Source: Bacteroidota bacterium
Lineage (GTDB): Bacteria > Bacteroidota > JABWAT01
Direction of reading: 5' to 3'
NCBI GenBank assembly: GCA_013360915.1
Contig: JABWAT010000001.1
Coordinates: 656,981-720,980 of the forward strand
DNA length: 64,000 bases
Shown here one piece after another: positions 52,727 to 62,149 of the stretch. Each line of letters begins with the position of its first letter. The stretch's first letter is position 1. A program made the translations under genes and the position numbers. The notes below the pieces were generated by a model, which did not search any database, was not told where the DNA came from, and saw only the letters and a list, made by a program, of their open reading frames with translations.

Positions 52727-53590
52727 ATGAACCACCCACAAACCCTTCGTGCCTGGGCCAAAATCAACCTGGGCCTGAGAATTCTTAATAAACGTCCGGA
52801 TGGCTATCATAATATCGAATCCATCTTCCACTATATTGATTGGTATGATAGCCTGCAATTCACCGCTGCCTCAGGTTTTTCTTTCAGTTGTTCAGACACC
52901 CGTCTGCCGGTTGATGATCAGAATCTGGTGGTCCGGGCGGTCAGACGGGTGGAATCCATTTTGGGATTCACCTTCCCTTTTCATATCCACCTGATCAAAT
53001 CCATTCCTTTTGGTGCCGGACTGGGCGGAGGTTCATCAGATGCAGCCACGGTTCTGCGTTTTGCGCAACGGCAGTGGCCCGGAAAGCTGAGTGATGATAC
53101 CCTTGGACACATTGCTGCCTTTCTGGGCTCTGATGTCAATTTTTTCCTCAGTCCGGTGACTCAGATCGCCTCAGACCGGGGCATTCATCTTAAACCGCTG
53201 AATTTTACCATTCCCGGTTGGATTTTAACCGCCTTTCCGCCCACCGAGGTCCCAACCGGATGGGCCTATCAGCAGGTCAGGCCGTTTGACCGGTATGAAC
53301 GTTCCCTGACTGACATCGCAAATGACCATCCACCGATCGATAACTATACCGGTTTGTTCGTGAATGATTTTGACGAACCGATTGCCAGACTGAAGCCGGA
53401 AATTGCTCAGCTCAAATCTAAATTACAGTCCACGGGCGCTCTATATGTGTCACTTTCTGGAAGCGGAAGTGCCTGTTTTGCCGTTTACAACGACAAAAGC
53501 CGGGCAGAGCTGGCGGCCGGTCTTCTGTCTGCAGAGGTCCCGGTCTCGCTGACTCCACCCGGCTTTTTACCGGATAGTCAATACTTCTGA
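52727..53590 (+). CDS. ispE: 4-diphosphocytidyl-2-C-methyl-D-erythritol kinase (IspE)
   Basis: 287 residues, the usual IspE length. It is a GHMP kinase of the MEP isoprenoid pathway. AWAKINLGLRI opens the protein; the ATP loop is IPFGAGLGGGSSDA and the C-terminal motif is SLSGSGSACFAVY. The open frame continues upstream to 52298, but that part is antisense to the symporter and unlike IspE, so the ATG at 52727 is used. There is no Shine-Dalgarno site. A good promoter ends 7 nt before it, which suggests a leaderless mRNA. Its stop is 2 nt from the convergent HU-SPOR gene. Confidence 0.96.
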   Translation: MNHPQTLRAWAKINLGLRILNKRPDGYHNIESIFHYIDWYDSLQFTAASGFSFSCSDTRLPVDDQNLVVRAVRRVESILGFTFPFHIHLIKSIPFGAGLGGGSSDAATVLRFAQRQWPGKLSDDTLGHIAAFLGSDVNFFLSPVTQIASDRGIHLKPLNFTIPGWILTAFPPTEVPTGWAYQQVRPFDRYERSLTDIANDHPPIDNYTGLFVNDFDEPIARLKPEIAQLKSKLQSTGALYVSLSGSGSACFAVYNDKSRAELAAGLLSAEVPVSLTPPGFLPDSQYF

Positions 53591-53592
53591 CT

Positions 53593-55152
53593 TTATTTCA
53601 GCCGATCCACCCATGCATCGGGAATGTCGGCTTTCAGTTCTTCAAGACCTGCCAGCGCCTTCGCCCTCGAGGTGAACTGACCTAACCGGACACGGAACAC
53701 CTGTTTTCCGTTCACGTCAGCCGCCTGAACAATGCCCTCATATCCTTTAGCCTTCCATTGACCCAGTAATTTATCGGCAGCTGCCTGGGTTGGGAACGAT
53801 CCGATGTTAATCGAAAAACCTCCCTTTGCCGGATCGATTGGTGATTGGAAACCCGCGTGTGTGGCTGTTGTTCCGGCAGGTTCTGCAGCGGGTTTTTTCG
53901 GAGCAGGTTTCTCAGCAGGGGCCTGAGCCGTCTTGGTGGCTGGTGCAGGTTCCTTTGGTTTTGTCTCCTTAACCGGCTGGCTTGAAGGCTTTTTCGTTTC
54001 CTGCGCAGGAGCCGGCTTGGTTGTTACGGGTTCTGCCGGTGTTTTTGCAGCTGGTTTTACAGGTTCAGTTTTTGTTGTCTGATCCTTGACATGCGCTGTA
54101 TTTACAGGAGCCGTTGCCAGGTCCTGAGAGGTAACAGGAGGGGTGACCTTGGCCGGTTGAGTGGCAGTAACCGAATCACTGGCTGATTTCAGATATTCTT
54201 CTTTCTTGGCGGTATCACCACTCATGAAATACCAGATGGCGGCCACCAATATGAGAATCCCAAGTGCGATGAGCCCCCAAAGCTTTTTATGATCCATTTC
54301 GCTTCCGAGCTCGGTCGGACTCAGAACATACTCGGTTGGATCAATTTTTTTGTTGCCTTCTGCAGTTGCTGCAGGAGGAGCCTGGAAGGCCTTTGGTGCC
54401 GCAGGCTCAGGTGTTGAAACCGGTTCCGAAGCCTGGAATCCCGGAGGACGAATCGGACCTCCGGTATCGGCTGCCGGTATGGAAGCCGGTGCAGGAACTT
54501 CCTGATGCACCAGAGACGGAGCCGGGGGCTCGGGCAAAGATGCAGGCTCTGGTTCCTGAGCCATGAACGGTTCAGGTGACAGAGAAGGCTCCGGTTCTGG
54601 AATAACAGCAGAGGGCAGCGGTTCAGCAAGGTCGCTTTCCTGAACGGCTGGTTCATCCCACGTAACCGGTTCCGGTTCTGAAAGTTCAGGTACCGATTCC
54701 TCTGCAAACCCGATGGTTTCGGGTTCTTCGGCAACAGGTAGCGGTACTGGCTCTGAAACAGGTTCAGCAACCGGTTCCGCCATGGGTTCCTCTGCAGGCA
54801 CTTCAGTAAACGGGCTCTCAGAATCATCAAAAGAGATTTCTTCGGAAACCTCAGCAGCACTTTCGGCTGAATCGGCTGTTACAGCATAGGTTTCCAGACT
54901 TTCATCGATGGGAACCGGCTGTATGGTTTCGTATTTATAGTTAACCAGGCGGGCAAAGTCTGAATTCACTTCAAAAGAGAGTTTGCCATATTCCGACTGT
55001 ACAAACGTTCCGAGTTCACCAAAATCAACCGGTGTTCCGGCCTGTACCTTTTCCAGGATCAGGGTGATCAGGGAATCAAGAACAACGGCGATGTCATTCG
55101 GATTTTTTTTGGTGTCAACCTGGAGTTGTTCAAAAAGTTTCTGGGCGTCCAT
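53593..55152 (-). CDS. HU-like / transmembrane / SPOR protein
   Basis: 519 residues in four parts. Residues 1-85 form an HU-like (HU-CCDC81 type) domain with VDFGELGTFVQSEYG. Residues about 90-270 are a Pro/Glu/Ser/Ala-rich linker. A single membrane helix (LWGLIALGILILVAAIW, about 290-308) is followed by a Lys/Pro/Ala-rich spacer. A SPOR domain closes the protein (about 444-519, FSINIGSF...FRVRLGQF). The topology would put the HU part in the cytoplasm and the SPOR part on peptidoglycan, with denuded glycans of the septum as the usual SPOR target. AAGGA precedes the ATG. A small HU gene lies 14 nt upstream. Confidence 0.88.
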   Translation of the reverse strand: MDAQKLFEQLQVDTKKNPNDIAVVLDSLITLILEKVQAGTPVDFGELGTFVQSEYGKLSFEVNSDFARLVNYKYETIQPVPIDESLETYAVTADSAESAAEVSEEISFDDSESPFTEVPAEEPMAEPVAEPVSEPVPLPVAEEPETIGFAEESVPELSEPEPVTWDEPAVQESDLAEPLPSAVIPEPEPSLSPEPFMAQEPEPASLPEPPAPSLVHQEVPAPASIPAADTGGPIRPPGFQASEPVSTPEPAAPKAFQAPPAATAEGNKKIDPTEYVLSPTELGSEMDHKKLWGLIALGILILVAAIWYFMSGDTAKKEEYLKSASDSVTATQPAKVTPPVTSQDLATAPVNTAHVKDQTTKTEPVKPAAKTPAEPVTTKPAPAQETKKPSSQPVKETKPKEPAPATKTAQAPAEKPAPKKPAAEPAGTTATHAGFQSPIDPAKGGFSINIGSFPTQAAADKLLGQWKAKGYEGIVQAADVNGKQVFRVRLGQFTSRAKALAGLEELKADIPDAWVDRLK

Positions 55153-55166
55153 CCGTGGTTATCCTT

Positions 55167-55418
55167 TCATCCTGCGGGAGTGAATTCAAGTGTATCCTTG
55201 GGTGGAAACATGACCAGCTTTCCGGTCTCGGGATCCAATTCCTTCAGACTGGCCAGGTGATGGACATGAAACGTACCCAAACCAGGCAGTTCGACAGGTT
55301 CACGATTGAGAATGGCCGTTTTTATTATCGCACTGAATGCGTTCAGGATGGGTTCAATTTCGGTATCGGACAGGTTGGTCCGTATCGAAATTTCCTGAAC
55401 CAGAGTTTTCTGAAACAT
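55167..55418 (-). CDS. Small HU/IHF-like DNA-binding protein
   Basis: 83 residues, close to HU length (about 90). It has the HU pattern: an N-terminal helical pair, then the core LPGLGTFHVHHLASLKELDPETGK, then a closing segment ending in LEFTPAG. The DNA-binding arm lies between LASL and the closing segment and is less basic than in standard HU (MFPPKDTLEF). It may pair with the HU-like head of the next gene rather than act as a general nucleoid protein. AAGGA stands 7 nt before the ATG. Confidence 0.83.
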   Translation of the reverse strand: MFQKTLVQEISIRTNLSDTEIEPILNAFSAIIKTAILNREPVELPGLGTFHVHHLASLKELDPETGKLVMFPPKDTLEFTPAG

Positions 55419-55428
55419 GGGTGGTTCC

Positions 55429-56946
55429 TTAAAATTGATACCGGAATCCGGCTGTAATCTGAAAAGGCTCCAAACTTAAACCGGGGACTGATTTTTCGTC
55501 TTCAGCTATTATAATCCTAAATTCTGCAAATAAATTCAATGGTTTCAGCCGTAAATCATTGGTTTTTAAGGAAATTTCGGTCAGGTCACCTGTTTTTTTC
55601 CGGTTTCGGGTATCCGTGGCCCGTGCAGTGTGATATCGGGCACTCAGACCGACTCGGGTTTCACCATCCGCTGAAAGCCAGGTGCCCGCCAGCAAGAGCT
55701 GTCTCATGCCTTCCCATGGTACCGACCGGACCGGACCAATGGGAGCCAGCAGGGTAAGGCCAGGAGTGATGCGGATCTGTCCGGAATACTGATACAACCA
55801 TTCCAACGTCCCCGAATAACTCTTCAAGGGAAGAACCTGAAGAGTCAGTTGATCCGACACAAATACCTGTGGTCTTTCAGATCCTGTACCAATCAGGCGC
55901 AACAGGGACCGGGGGCCCGTGATCCACTCTGCCGTGAATCGTATCTGATTTCTGATCAGGGATGAACCGGTTGAATCCGGACCGGGCAGATACCACCACC
56001 GGCTTTGATGGATCAGACGGGAGGGATCCGATACTGACTGTGACTGCCAGAACAGGGTGGTATGCCATTGCCGTCCATGCCAGCCAGCCTCGGCACGGCT
56101 GATCCAGCCAGCCTCACGGTCCTTATTCCAGACCACTCCGCCACTAAGCCCCAGATTCGTTTGTTCCCCTCTCCACTCCGGTCCGGTGAGAACGGAAAAA
56201 ACAGAACCTGTTTTACCTCGCGGATGGTCAACCACCAGGTCGGCCGTGGAATTCCACCAGCCAATAGACAGATCTTTTTTCCATTCAGCCAGACTTCTGA
56301 TCTGACCCGGAACCTGAAAGTTGCCTGTTGTGGATAACTGAGAAAGCCCCAACATGAGCTGAATCCGGTCCCCGGCGGAACGCGGATCTGAAAATACCGA
56401 AACCTGGGCCTCTGTCCATTCGGACTGGTTGGGTGACAATCCGGATTTCCCAGGCTTGATTTCACGGTTGGACCAGCCGGCGGTTCCTACCCAGAACCAA
56501 TCGGAAGACCGGCTCATCAGTCCGGTTTGCGAGTTCCCGACTACCAGCGACCCCTGCTGCCCGTGAAAGGTTGTTTCCTTTTCTGTTTCAACGCCCGCCC
56601 CGGCATGAATATCCAGATGAATATCTCCATAAGGCATGGAAATCCCCGCCAGTGTCCTCCATCCTCCCTGAAAGGACCCGGCCACCCCTGCATAAGCCTC
56701 ACCGGGTGGAGCAAAAGGAGCAAACAGGGCAGGAACCTGATCGGAAGGACCGTAGACTTCCATGGCCGGACTGAAAAAACCCTCCGGCTGAAAATTCATG
56801 GTAAATGCCTGGTGCTCGCGCAGTTTAAGCGTGGGACTGGGAATCTCGGGCGCCTTGAACAGCCGGACACTGTCAGCAGGTGACTGTGCCAGAATCGGTG
56901 TGGCTGCCACAAGCAGCAACAATACAACAAGCAGATTACCTGACAA
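55429..56946 (-). CDS. Outer-membrane beta-barrel protein, function unknown
   Basis: 505 residues with a signal peptide ending TPILAQ. The mature part is rich in Trp, Gly, Tyr and alternating hydrophobic residues (for example WFWVGTAGWSN and RLIHQSRWWYL) and ends in FRYQF, with the C-terminal Phe common to outer-membrane barrels. No plug, TonB box or family signature was seen. The start is a TTG; GGGAGG lies 9 nt upstream, within the end of the TPR gene, with an 11-nt overlap. It is followed 10 nt later by the HU gene. Confidence 0.75.
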   Translation of the reverse strand: MSGNLLVVLLLLVAATPILAQSPADSVRLFKAPEIPSPTLKLREHQAFTMNFQPEGFFSPAMEVYGPSDQVPALFAPFAPPGEAYAGVAGSFQGGWRTLAGISMPYGDIHLDIHAGAGVETEKETTFHGQQGSLVVGNSQTGLMSRSSDWFWVGTAGWSNREIKPGKSGLSPNQSEWTEAQVSVFSDPRSAGDRIQLMLGLSQLSTTGNFQVPGQIRSLAEWKKDLSIGWWNSTADLVVDHPRGKTGSVFSVLTGPEWRGEQTNLGLSGGVVWNKDREAGWISRAEAGWHGRQWHTTLFWQSQSVSDPSRLIHQSRWWYLPGPDSTGSSLIRNQIRFTAEWITGPRSLLRLIGTGSERPQVFVSDQLTLQVLPLKSYSGTLEWLYQYSGQIRITPGLTLLAPIGPVRSVPWEGMRQLLLAGTWLSADGETRVGLSARYHTARATDTRNRKKTGDLTEISLKTNDLRLKPLNLFAEFRIIIAEDEKSVPGLSLEPFQITAGFRYQF

Positions 56947-59701
56947 GTTTACGTGCCTCCCTGACGGCTTCTGAACCCGGATGATCCCGGCTGTATGATT
57001 GGATGTAACGGGTCGCCGCTCTCTTCTTTTTCTCCCTTACCATGGCTTTTACCGTTTCCAGAAAAACCAGATCCACCAGAGGCTGATCGCGTGGCCAGGC
57101 TTCCAGCAGACGCTTCCCTTCCGTTTCGACGCCGGCCAGTTTCAGGGTGGCAGCCCGGCGTTTGAACAATTCACTGTCCAGTTCTCTGGTAACCGATCCC
57201 GGAAGCTGATCCCTCACCTGATCATAGAAGTGTTCGAACGTGGCTGGTTCCTTCCGGTCGAAATAATGACGCGCCAGGTCGGCCAGCAGGTTTTCTTTCT
57301 GATTCGCAATGGCCGGCCAGGAAGCCGACTCGGTCTGCCAGAATTCCCAGAAGGACCAATCCCCTTTCAGTCTGGCTGCGGCAGCCAGACGCTGATAAAA
57401 ATCAAATCGTTCAGACTCATGCCTGAATGGTTCGGAAAGCAGCCATCTCAGACCGGTGGTATCCAATCCTGCCAGCGAGGCAGGATCGATCACCTGTCTG
57501 ATCTGAATCAGATCGGAGGGAAAGACCATACGGTTGTCGGCTGCGTAGGACCACACAGGCCAGTTGCCAATCATGAATAACCTGAAAACCACCGGAAAAC
57601 GCAGGTCAGATTGATCATTATTCAGTCCGAGTTGTTCCCATAATGTCACGTCAAATCCATACTGTGTACGCATCTGATCGAGCAGTATACGCCAGTTTTC
57701 CGCCTGGTCAGCACCAATCCAGACTTGATTATCACCCGCCGATCCGGGCGGGATTTCGTTAAAAAAGGTCATCCAGGCTGTCATCTGGGGACCAAACATC
57801 CGGAAGAGATAGCCGGCCTGAGGGGACCGGAGCACTGCACTGATTGAATCGGCAGGCCAATGGGATCGGGCTGTGGCCAGTGAATAGGCCACAGAAGGCC
57901 AGCTGGTCAGCCTGATCAGGCTGGTGGTAAACCGATTCACTGTCAATTCTCCCCTGAGCGCCGAAATCCGGGTTTCCATCGGGACCAGCCAGTTATCACC
58001 CCGCATACCGAAACGTGCCCGGTAATCCCTGATCTGCTCAGGAATAAAGGCCATCGACCGGCTTTGCCAGGAAGCCTGAATCTGCAGCAAGGCTACCAGG
58101 TCGGGGAAGTAATCTGGCGCGAAGCGTTCAAGAACCCGAAGGGAACCGAGTGCGAGGTCGGGCCGGTTTGCTTTCAGGGTAATCATGGCAGACCGGAACA
58201 GAATACGGTTTCTGACCGAATCGGATCGGGAATACCGCAGCTTTTTCTGCATCAATTCCAAGCCGTCGGTTTCCCTGCCCAGTTGAAACAGGTTTTCCAC
58301 GCGGATCAGATCAATATCATCATAATAATCGGGATACCGGTCCCTCAGACGCAGAATCCGCTGTTCAACAGTATCCGGATCGTTTGTTTCTATCCGGCAA
58401 AAAAGTGAGTAAAGAAAGGCATCCTTTTCGAGGTGGTGTCCTCTGAATCGCAGAACAAAGTCGGTGAACCAGGCATCAGCGGTATAAAAATCACGATGGG
58501 CCCAGGAAGCAAAAGCCGCATTGAACAATAATTCGGGCCACCCTTTCCGTTGCAGGGAAACCGACAGGTCGGCTGCCTGCTGATAGGCCACCGATGCTTT
58601 TTCATATTCGCCCGTTTCCATGTACACCTGACCAAGCAAGGCATAGAGTGAATCGACCGGCAGGTTCAGAGAAGGTTCCTGCGTTACCAGAGCCAGATCC
58701 TTGCCGAAGGCAGGCCAGTTTCCCTGTTTCATCGACGCCCATAAGCGGTTGCTCAGGTTGTATCTCGACACATCGGGCAGATACCGGATGAGCGGTAACC
58801 TGGCCGAACTGATCTGACCAATCTGACCTGCCGATTTCCAGACTTCAACTTCCAGAACACGGCGGTATGGGTACAACCACGATTTTGTTCCGATCTCGGA
58901 TGCTTTTCTCAATGCCTGTGGTTTCTGATTATCCATCCAAAGGCACCATGCAAGCCGGTAACGGATGTAGTCAATCTGCCAGTTCTGAGGATAGGCGTTT
59001 TCAAACTGACCAAAGGCAATAATTGCCTCTTTCCAGTTCTCCATTCGGGCATAGGATTCCGCAATCAGTAAGCGGGATTTTTCCAGGTATCCGGGTTCAC
59101 TGATCACCGGAAGAATCAGTTGCAGCAGATCCACGGTCTTTTCATACTGTCCGGTCTGGAAATAGCAATCGGCAGTGGCAGCAAGGGAATAGGTGTAATA
59201 CTCCGATTGCGGATACTTTTCTGAAAAGGCCGTAAAGTTTTTTCCAGCTTCTACCCAATTACCCAACCGGGTCAGTAGCCAGGCGTGAAGGAGTTCACCA
59301 TGTATTTGTTCCGGAAAAGCGGTGGCACTTTTCAGACTGATCGTCAGACATTCCAGTGCTTTAGCCGGATCGTCATAATCTGCATACAATCTGGCCAGCC
59401 AATAAAAACTTCTGGACCGGATGGGTTCATTTGCCAGGGTGGTCAGTTCGGTGAGTAACGGTTCTGCTTCCTTTAACCGGTTTTGCTGCAAACGCAGGCC
59501 GGCCAGTGTCCATAGCCATTCAGACCGGTCGGGATGAACCGGATAGGTTTGCAGTTGAATACGCAGTGCTTCTTCCGATTCCACCCACCTTCCGTTGGAT
59601 TGGAGCACCGGCAGGGGTACACCGGAAGGTTGAGAAAAAACCGGGGACCAGCACGCGATGATCAGGCCGATCATCTGCAGGAACCGGCCCGTTTTCACCA
59701 T
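56936..59701 (-). CDS. Long exported TPR protein
   Basis: 921 residues with a signal peptide (about 1-23, ending SPVFSQP). Almost the whole length is helical repeats of TPR type. The clearest are in residues 50-260 (LKEAEPLLTELTTLANEP, PAKALECLTISLK, YEKTVDLLQLILP) and near 350-450. The C-terminal third is less regular. It is probably periplasmic. The outer-membrane barrel gene overlaps its end by 11 nt and the isoprenoid-kinase-like gene overlaps its start by 7 nt, so these products are made together. No specific function can be given. Confidence 0.85.
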   Translation of the reverse strand: MVKTGRFLQMIGLIIACWSPVFSQPSGVPLPVLQSNGRWVESEEALRIQLQTYPVHPDRSEWLWTLAGLRLQQNRLKEAEPLLTELTTLANEPIRSRSFYWLARLYADYDDPAKALECLTISLKSATAFPEQIHGELLHAWLLTRLGNWVEAGKNFTAFSEKYPQSEYYTYSLAATADCYFQTGQYEKTVDLLQLILPVISEPGYLEKSRLLIAESYARMENWKEAIIAFGQFENAYPQNWQIDYIRYRLAWCLWMDNQKPQALRKASEIGTKSWLYPYRRVLEVEVWKSAGQIGQISSARLPLIRYLPDVSRYNLSNRLWASMKQGNWPAFGKDLALVTQEPSLNLPVDSLYALLGQVYMETGEYEKASVAYQQAADLSVSLQRKGWPELLFNAAFASWAHRDFYTADAWFTDFVLRFRGHHLEKDAFLYSLFCRIETNDPDTVEQRILRLRDRYPDYYDDIDLIRVENLFQLGRETDGLELMQKKLRYSRSDSVRNRILFRSAMITLKANRPDLALGSLRVLERFAPDYFPDLVALLQIQASWQSRSMAFIPEQIRDYRARFGMRGDNWLVPMETRISALRGELTVNRFTTSLIRLTSWPSVAYSLATARSHWPADSISAVLRSPQAGYLFRMFGPQMTAWMTFFNEIPPGSAGDNQVWIGADQAENWRILLDQMRTQYGFDVTLWEQLGLNNDQSDLRFPVVFRLFMIGNWPVWSYAADNRMVFPSDLIQIRQVIDPASLAGLDTTGLRWLLSEPFRHESERFDFYQRLAAAARLKGDWSFWEFWQTESASWPAIANQKENLLADLARHYFDRKEPATFEHFYDQVRDQLPGSVTRELDSELFKRRAATLKLAGVETEGKRLLEAWPRDQPLVDLVFLETVKAMVREKKKRAATRYIQSYSRDHPGSEAVREARKLVR

Positions 59702-61201: not shown

Positions 61202-62149
61202 TCAGAAAGAATAAGTGAGTGTCAGAGCCGGCACCCGGGTATCGGGTGTAACCGGAACCGACCTCAAAGATAGCCCATAAACACGGTTATGTAAACGGGA
61301 CTGAATGGCGGCGTTCACCGCAGATACCGCATGATTGGCCAGGGTAAGAATAATAAATCCGTTGGCAAGGTTGTGAAGGTCATTGGCTTTCCCGCGCAAA
61401 TCGGCATAGCGCTGGAAGGAAGGGGTGGTGCTTCCCAGGTTTCTGAACAGGCTGATATCCTGAGGTGCATTCCAGTTTCCCGGCGTCTGATTGCCAAAAT
61501 CCCACCAGCCGGGAGTAAACTGATCGTATTTTCCAATCAGTTCGTAATATTGTTGTGAACCATAGGACGGAAGGCTGTGAGAAAAACTGGCACCGGCACC
61601 GTGTTCAAATTTCATCTTTTCTTCAAGCCGGTTAAGCTCTCCCCACCATTCACGGTTTCCGGGCAACTGATTGTCATTGGGATTTAATCTGCTCTTTAAT
61701 GAAGCCGCCTGCGTGCGAGCCAGTTCATCCTGTGCAGAGGATACTTCGGCCACATAGATCAGATAGTCAGCATACTTTCTGGCACTCCAGCCTGTCGATG
61801 GATCATCGGCAATTTTCTGGTAGGCCTTTGTTTCAGAAACAGCTTCAGACTCATAGTACCAGGCTGCAACCACAAAAACCACCTCGGCAGCAAAAAATCC
61901 GATGGCCGACTTATACGCCTCGGCATACCATTCACCCGAACCGGGAACCACTGCAGACATCAGCGCAGCCTTCCAGGGTTTCTTTGTTTCATCATAAAGA
62001 AAATCGGGTACTTGTAACCGGGTCTCCAGGGCCGGTTCAGAGTCAAGCAAAAGGTCCCCGTTCAGAGCGACCTGATCCGACCGGAGAGGTTGCGCCGTCA
62101 GGCTGGAAACCAAACTCATTAAAAGCAGAAATAAAACTGGAAATTTCAT
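61202..62149 (-). CDS. DUF5683-like exported/membrane protein
   Basis: 315 residues with a signal peptide (ending SLTAQP). The DUF5683-type core is KPWKAALMSAVVPGSGEWYAEAYKSAIGFF, in which the PxxA..SAVxPGxGxxY pattern is followed by hydrophobic helices, then a long hydrophilic insertion (about 105-245), another hydrophobic helix (GFIILTLANHAVSAVNAA) and a beta-type C-terminus ending TLTYSF. Such proteins are common in Bacteroidota and uncharacterised. It overlaps the Omp85-like gene by 4 nt and lies 7 nt upstream of the isoprenoid-kinase-like fusion. Confidence 0.82.
   Translation of the reverse strand: MKFPVLFLLLMSLVSSLTAQPLRSDQVALNGDLLLDSEPALETRLQVPDFLYDETKKPWKAALMSAVVPGSGEWYAEAYKSAIGFFAAEVVFVVAAWYYESEAVSETKAYQKIADDPSTGWSARKYADYLIYVAEVSSAQDELARTQAASLKSRLNPNDNQLPGNREWWGELNRLEEKMKFEHGAGASFSHSLPSYGSQQYYELIGKYDQFTPGWWDFGNQTPGNWNAPQDISLFRNLGSTTPSFQRYADLRGKANDLHNLANGFIILTLANHAVSAVNAAIQSRLHNRVYGLSLRSVPVTPDTRVPALTLTYSF

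Follow-up and report, generated by a model that had tools for sequence, protein, structure and literature searches.

Bacteroidetes HU-SPOR proteins have been predicted, or read, as tethers between DNA and the cell wall. Bacterial HU-SPOR proteins resembling CCDC81 were reportedly described by Burroughs and colleagues in Cell Cycle in 2017; in the CCDC81-like layout two HU domains (Pfam models PF18174 and PF18175) are followed by a transmembrane (TM) helix and a SPOR domain. Eukaryotic CCDC81-type proteins are not known to have a membrane helix or a SPOR domain, and E. coli FtsN and DedD have a short cytoplasmic tail. Searches of the open PMC library listed no paper in which an HU-SPOR protein has a free HU as its partner. 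The locus reported here lies in a window, by which we mean the whole stretch of 64,000 nucleotides that was analysed. It encodes a free HU-fold protein (HU1) and a fusion whose head (HU2) is HU-like, and it agrees with the CCDC81-like proteins both in the order of its parts (HU1, HU2, TM, SPOR) and in a domain-by-domain profile match. It departs from them in that HU1 is encoded by a gene of its own, with helix 1 complete, and in that both halves score below the Pfam cut-offs. Since these cut-offs are not reached and the two HU domains lie on separate genes instead of in one chain, we filed the pair as a split variant and not as a strict Pfam member.

The initial annotation had noticed a small HU gene 14 nt upstream of a gene for an HU-TM-SPOR fusion, and the open reading frames, the Pfam matches and the hydropathy bear this out (Table 1). 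The 14 nt run from the stop codon of HU1 to the start codon of the fusion; both genes are on the minus strand, in different reading frames, and each ATG is preceded by a stretch resembling a ribosome-binding site. HU1 scores 61.5 bits against PF00216, over the curated cut-off of 22.4, and has a complete helix1-helix2 core, a full-length beta arm and no C-terminal helix. The fusion does carry a membrane helix, with a hydropathy peak of 2.39 (19-residue span, from residue 291), and then a C-terminal SPOR domain; its HU-like head is weakly matched, at 20.0 bits by HU-HIG (cut-off 26.2) and 15.7 bits by PF00216 (cut-off 22.4). Because the SPOR domain has to be periplasmic, we take the first linker to be cytoplasmic. 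Of 21 HU2 proteins, 18 have a SPOR domain according to Pfam (E<=1e-3), and hydropathy shows a strong membrane-type helix in 19. The membrane helix is absent from the HU2 frame of L081 (genome G178) and of L082 (genome G007), apparently through a frame break or a sequencing error, and both loci were retained in the pair count; in L082 the TM and SPOR part resumes in the next frame.

Table 1. Features of the locus, with positions in the window.
Feature	Position	Strand	Evidence
HU1, free HU-fold protein, 83 aa	55167..55418	-	ORF; PF00216, E 9.3e-17
HU2-TM-SPOR fusion, 519 aa	53593..55152	-	ORF; SPOR match, E 4.4e-14
HU2 head, residues 1-85, HU fold lacking the beta arm, net charge -7	54898..55152	-	weak HU-HIG/PF00216 match; profile relatives
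Pro/Glu-rich linker, residues 86-288, net charge -40, presumed cytoplasmic side	54289..54897	-	sequence, charge
Transmembrane helix, residues ~289-311	54220..54288	-	hydropathy
Pro/Lys/Ala-rich linker, residues 312-440, presumed periplasmic side	53833..54219	-	composition
SPOR domain, residues 442-515	53608..53829	-	PF05036
505-aa gene upstream, signal-peptide-like start, beta-rich, possible outer-membrane barrel	55429..56946	-	synteny, AF2 model
921-aa TPR-repeat gene upstream	56936..59701	-	Pfam TPR families; export suggested by its start
DUF5683-like protein	61208-62149		26.6 bits (cut-off 26.7)

Of 60 relatives, a search with the single sequence of the window's HU2 head found no more than 7, and for this reason we built a profile from seven heads and searched 198 genomes of the phylum with it. 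The profile matched 164 of them (E<=0.01), many of the matches being short frames, which probably are canonical HUs. The loci examined are all 80 among the matches listed which have a frame of at least 280 aa; the shorter frames in the list, of about 90-160 aa and probably those of canonical HUs, are not counted among them. HU1 is present in every one of these 80 loci from the matches listed: in 45 (the window included) it is a separate gene directly upstream of the HU2 gene, the split form, and in 35 it is the N-terminal domain of the HU2 chain, the fused form. It was recognised by reading the translations in 58 loci (40 split, 18 fused) and by profile in the other 22, of which 5 are split and 17 are fused (E at Z=1000 being 1.4e-15 for the weakest). 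In the 35 split pairs measured, the gap between the two genes runs from -20 to +24 nt. The initial annotation had made its proposal depend on the co-conservation of the two proteins, and co-conserved they are in this sample. Chance adjacency of HU1 and the fusion was also considered and is rejected by the 80-locus survey.

The split form occurs in 45 genomes of 11 families (f1, f3, f11, f12, f14, f16, f18, f27, f29, f33 and f37) and the fused form in eight (f2, f5, f8, f14, f21, f26, f35 and f38). As f16 supplies many of them, the 45 split cases are not independent events. Genus g18 of f14 holds both forms, split in G103 (L034) and G122 (L049) and fused in G111 (L085/L066), which means that a fusion or a fission happened within that genus. 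One can notice that HU1 of 9 of the 11 split families is a mini-HU of 60-76 aa without helix 1 (for example L041:1291-1485), these lengths resting on start codons that we picked; helix 1 is retained in the window's family and in G054.

From 39 split pairs we built an HU1 profile and an HU2 profile, which were run on 18 fused chains, one of which (L066) shares its family with two of the split training pairs. The HU1 profile gave the higher score to the first domain in 18 of 18 chains, narrowly so in L068 (1.0 bit) and in L055 (4.4 bits), and the HU2 profile gave it to the second domain in 18 of 18. Compared profile to profile, matching halves score 104 and 107, and when the halves are crossed the scores fall to 59.5 and 60. 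By sequence comparison, the window's genes thus correspond half for half to the single-chain head of their relatives, and, since these relatives fuse the two domains, HU1 and HU2 should contact each other (the gene-fusion argument). A mixed HU1-HU2 dimer is well supported: the pairing of the free HU with the anchored head, as first proposed, has in its favour the co-conservation in 80 of 80 loci among the matches listed, the 35 fusions and the tethered pseudo-dimer model described below. It could be objected that HU1 is an independent soluble nucleoid protein, or a homodimer, merely co-transcribed with a fusion whose HU2 pairs with itself. A homodimer is physically possible, given that HU1 of the window has a complete helix1-helix2 core and exceeds the PF00216 cut-off. 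We nevertheless hold this explanation to be very unlikely, as it has to face the 35 fused chains, the positional correspondence in all 18 chains tested and the mini-HUs of 9 of the 11 split families, which, deprived of helix 1, should not form a normal HU homodimer.

As for the Pfam models, the fused chains L065 and L068 match PF18174 (HU-CCDC81_bac_1) and then PF18175 (HU-CCDC81_bac_2), over cut-off, and in the Pfam scan neither model is hit by L066 or L043, which are fused chains as well. Hence the two models account for some of the fused forms, not for all. In the window HU1 reaches 16.9 bits against PF18174 (cut-off 26) and HU2 reaches 11.5 bits against PF18175 (cut-off 35), both below; the free HU1 of G029, G095 and G103 also match PF18174 below cut-off (E 4e-4 to 7.3e-4). 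At E<=1e-3, PF18175 matches 11 of 21 HU2 proteins, and HU2 of the window is not one of these. PF18174 is found in 40 of the 198 genomes, over cut-off in 33, and among 14 control genomes in Bacteroides ihuae only; with its matches other families, f13 for instance, gain candidates of the fused type, which mostly lie outside the 80 loci.

The initial annotation had suggested a structure prediction of the mixed dimer. We obtained an AlphaFold model for the pair of a relative, L093, whose HU1 and HU2 are each 51% identical to the window's; the two were joined by an artificial four-residue linker (reading through two stop codons) and the alignment had six rows. The mean pLDDT of 10-residue blocks is 83-95 in HU1, 61 at the junction and mostly 85-92 in HU2 (77 near its end); the pTM is 0.67, with a disordered tail of 41 residues. 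The five versions of the model have mean pLDDT of 76.6, 74.6, 73.6, 70.1 and 47.4, the last one being poor. In this model the HU2 head of L093 folds as an HU, and the relative's pair is predicted to form an IHF-like pseudo-dimer: VIA-align superposes 113 of its residues on the single-chain IHF 2iie_A, with 2.3 A and Z 9.6, within a range (model residues 2..160) which includes both halves. This tight fit comes from VIA-align only, the Foldseek fits to IHF being loose (rmsd of 12.3 A to 2iie_A, with E 4.3e-3, and of 9.6 A to 2iif_A, with E 9.9e-4). The predicted geometry supports the mixed dimer, for a tethered pair from a relative and with one poor version. Its weight is limited because the tether favours contact, and the tethered model is also compatible with homodimers of HU1 or of HU2.

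For the whole pair, still in the tethered model, the best match is 8snb_1K, from a doublet-microtubule entry (Z 12.5, 147 residues, 4.4 A), followed by 9io5_T, from a Mycoplasma gliding-motor entry (Z 12.0, 141 residues, 3.8 A), and by 8v3l_A, from another doublet-microtubule entry (Z 11.0, 131 residues, 3.1 A); 8g2z_0T, also a doublet microtubule, gives Z 9.6. Both 8snb_1K and 9io5_T rank ahead of IHF. These model-based matches suggest a possible likeness of the pair to eukaryotic CCDC81-type microtubule inner proteins. Two articles place CCDC81 homologues inside the Tetrahymena doublet (PMC11961760, PMC10105768), and we infer that the matched chains are those homologues, the structure table giving entry titles only. 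The chain 9io5_T belongs to the structure of the Mycoplasma mobile gliding G1-ATPase. Judging from the model, it may be an unrecognised two-HU scaffold; the main text of PMC11864180, which we took as the paper of this motor, in the part available contains none of the terms DNA-binding, IHF, integration host factor and histone.

We now come to the DNA. In its initial form the proposal had the pair physically join DNA, inner membrane and septal cell wall, and the dimer might indeed tie the nucleoid to the inner membrane and the septal wall, for instance in chromosome placement or segregation at division. The fold is that of HU, the arm of HU1 is full-length with a proline at the tip position, HU1 is basic in some relatives and a DNA-bending protein, single-chain IHF, is among the whole-pair matches. 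The charges of the window's pair are hard to reconcile with this. HU1 had been annotated as being of reduced basicity; less basic it is, but this understates the matter, HU1 being acidic (pI 5.2, net charge -4). HU2 has pI 4.3 (net -7), and the 203-residue linker of the fusion, presumably cytoplasmic, has a net charge of -40. By contrast, the two canonical HUs present in the genome for DNA work have pI 9.7 and 9.6, with a net charge of +5 each. In the alignment the R-R-R-R of the arm of L. lactis HU becomes H-L-L-L in HU1, and HU2 has a short hairpin in place of the arm, as seen in its sequence and also in the relative's model; this hairpin is longer and basic in G054 and short in the other split pairs examined. 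We consider a DNA tether unlikely, and the DNA part of the original proposal is its weak step, one which the sequence does not support. What stands is the anchoring to membrane and wall, which follows from the domain content (TM and SPOR); the septal place would follow from the SPOR domain.

Compared with canonical HU and IHF (PF00216), the pair shares the fold, the pseudo-dimer geometry given by VIA-align and, for HU1, a score over cut-off. It differs in being acidic, in the absence from HU1 of the arm arginines and of the C-terminal helix, and in HU2 being armless and membrane anchored. Hence neither the basic protein with arm arginines nor the two beta arms per dimer of canonical HU/IHF is found here, and DNA contact by the window's pair appears unlikely from its residues. 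Acidity is common in the relatives too: the median pI is 5.9 for HU1 and 4.4 for HU2 in 40 split pairs, and 6.8 for the first HU and 5.0 for the second in 18 fused chains, and the net charge of the linker is -10 or lower in 10 of the 13 split relatives in which the helix was found (the exceptions being +1, -1 and -5). Some lineages, however, have a neutral or basic HU1 (with a pI as high as 9.7 when split and 10.0 when fused), and a basic HU2 is found in G054, G089 and G179, a slightly basic one in G015; because of this, DNA contact may occur in some relatives. Locus L058 (G179, C59) has a fused HU1-HU2 with a basic HU2 in an open frame of 780 aa, and no membrane helix was found in the 616 residues examined. 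In many split lineages the HU2 hairpin is followed (at about residues 66-80) by a motif resembling N-x-[KR]-[YF]-x-G-[LM]-x-P, which could be a binding site or a stand-in for helix 1 of HU1.

The genes around the pair were considered as well. The 505-aa and 921-aa genes and HU1 are on the same strand, closely spaced or overlapping, and a DUF92 membrane protein and the DUF5683-like protein come before the TPR gene. The 505-aa protein matches no Pfam family; its AF2 model, of low confidence (pLDDT 41.5), consists mostly of beta strands, its gene stands where relatives have their c2/c160 genes, and in a relative a TonB-receptor model whose cut-off is 700 gives 20.7 bits, a very weak match. From the strands, the synteny and this match, a barrel is possible. 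The TPR protein is probably exported. On the other side, the neighbour downstream of the fusion is an ispE-like gene (GHMP kinase domains) placed tail to tail with it, the two ends being 2 nt apart (53590-53593); a gene of the same cluster converges on the end of the fusion in the relatives L073 and L074 also.

The synteny was established by a longest-ORF heuristic on 21 loci, the window included. In 12 of them the second gene upstream of HU1 is a TPR gene on the same strand (918-1319 aa), and the larger barrel-like cluster is directly upstream of HU1 in 12; at this position the genes of the window's family (three) and that of L090 fall into clusters of their own. In 11 of the 21 loci the SPOR gene is directly followed downstream by an ExbB-like gene; 8 loci have an ExbD-like cluster and 6 have a TonB-like one, the cluster representatives matching MotA_ExbB (6.5e-30), ExbD (7.9e-22) and TonB_C (2.3e-7) in Pfam. 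The fused-type locus L090 has the TPR gene upstream and the ExbB gene downstream of its fused gene, and an ExbD gene of a separate cluster, assigned by Pfam (5.2e-23). The neighbourhood in relatives therefore points to a role in the envelope. The likeness to Tol-Pal and TonB systems lies in these next genes of relatives, of MotA/ExbB, ExbD and, in 6 of 21 loci, TonB_C type. It is a likeness of gene order in relatives only: the window's genome has three MotA/ExbB matches, which are elsewhere on the contig and not beside the pair, and in the other two loci of the window's family no ExbB or ExbD gene stands beside the pair.

Our preferred explanation, which we regard as probable though far from assured, is that the pair is a split CCDC81-like HU-HU-TM-SPOR protein, serving as a cytoplasmic protein-docking platform on a septal-wall anchor. 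HU1 and the HU2 head would each contribute one half of an asymmetric heterodimer of the HU type, carried on the cytoplasmic side by a long acidic tether if the topology is as we suppose; one membrane helix would link this tether to the periplasmic SPOR domain, which should bind denuded peptidoglycan, presumably at the septum; and the heterodimer would dock a component of the divisome or of a Tol/TonB-like envelope system, if the ligand is a protein of this kind. As the halves are acidic, HU2 is armless and HU1 has lost the arm arginines, protein docking, and not DNA bending, is most likely.

A specific version of this docking explanation, not exclusive of it, is that the SPOR protein replaces FtsN, as an activator of the FtsN/DedD type, and that the HU pair docks on FtsA or on another cytoplasmic protein of the divisome. 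The fusion is, like FtsN and DedD, a single-pass membrane protein ending in SPOR, with the same order in its topology (cytoplasmic part, one helix, long periplasmic linker, SPOR), and the 3.65 Mb assembly of the window's genome has three SPOR matches, the fusion included. The NCBIfam ftsN model gives a weak match of 31.8 bits, which however is far below its cut-off (TIGR02223, 107.65) and spans residues 346-507 only, that is, linker and SPOR. The two-HU cytoplasmic head and the acidic cytoplasmic linker of 200 residues also set the window's pair apart from the E. coli proteins, and we find this version rather unlikely. A wider generalisation, which we put forward tentatively and which is on the whole doubtful, is that the HU fold has become in Bacteroidota an obligate acidic one-armed heterodimer, split or fused, the non-DNA cytoplasmic hub of a trans-envelope division machine with a SPOR anchor, barrel and TPR partners and a proton-driven ExbB/ExbD motor; in the cilia of eukaryotes, the CCDC81 scaffold would correspond to this bacterial hub.

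Finally we must note what the docking explanation would mean for the phylum. The free partner suggests that the true nature of the HU-SPOR head is that of a heterodimer. It provides a clean pair for co-expression, structure determination and two-hybrid assays, and its acidity makes the choice between DNA and protein as the ligand directly testable; split and fused forms within one genus are in addition a natural experiment on the pairing. If the heterodimer is a docking hub beside ExbB/ExbD-type motors, it may fill the role of FtsN or of Tol-Pal in the envelope division of this phylum.
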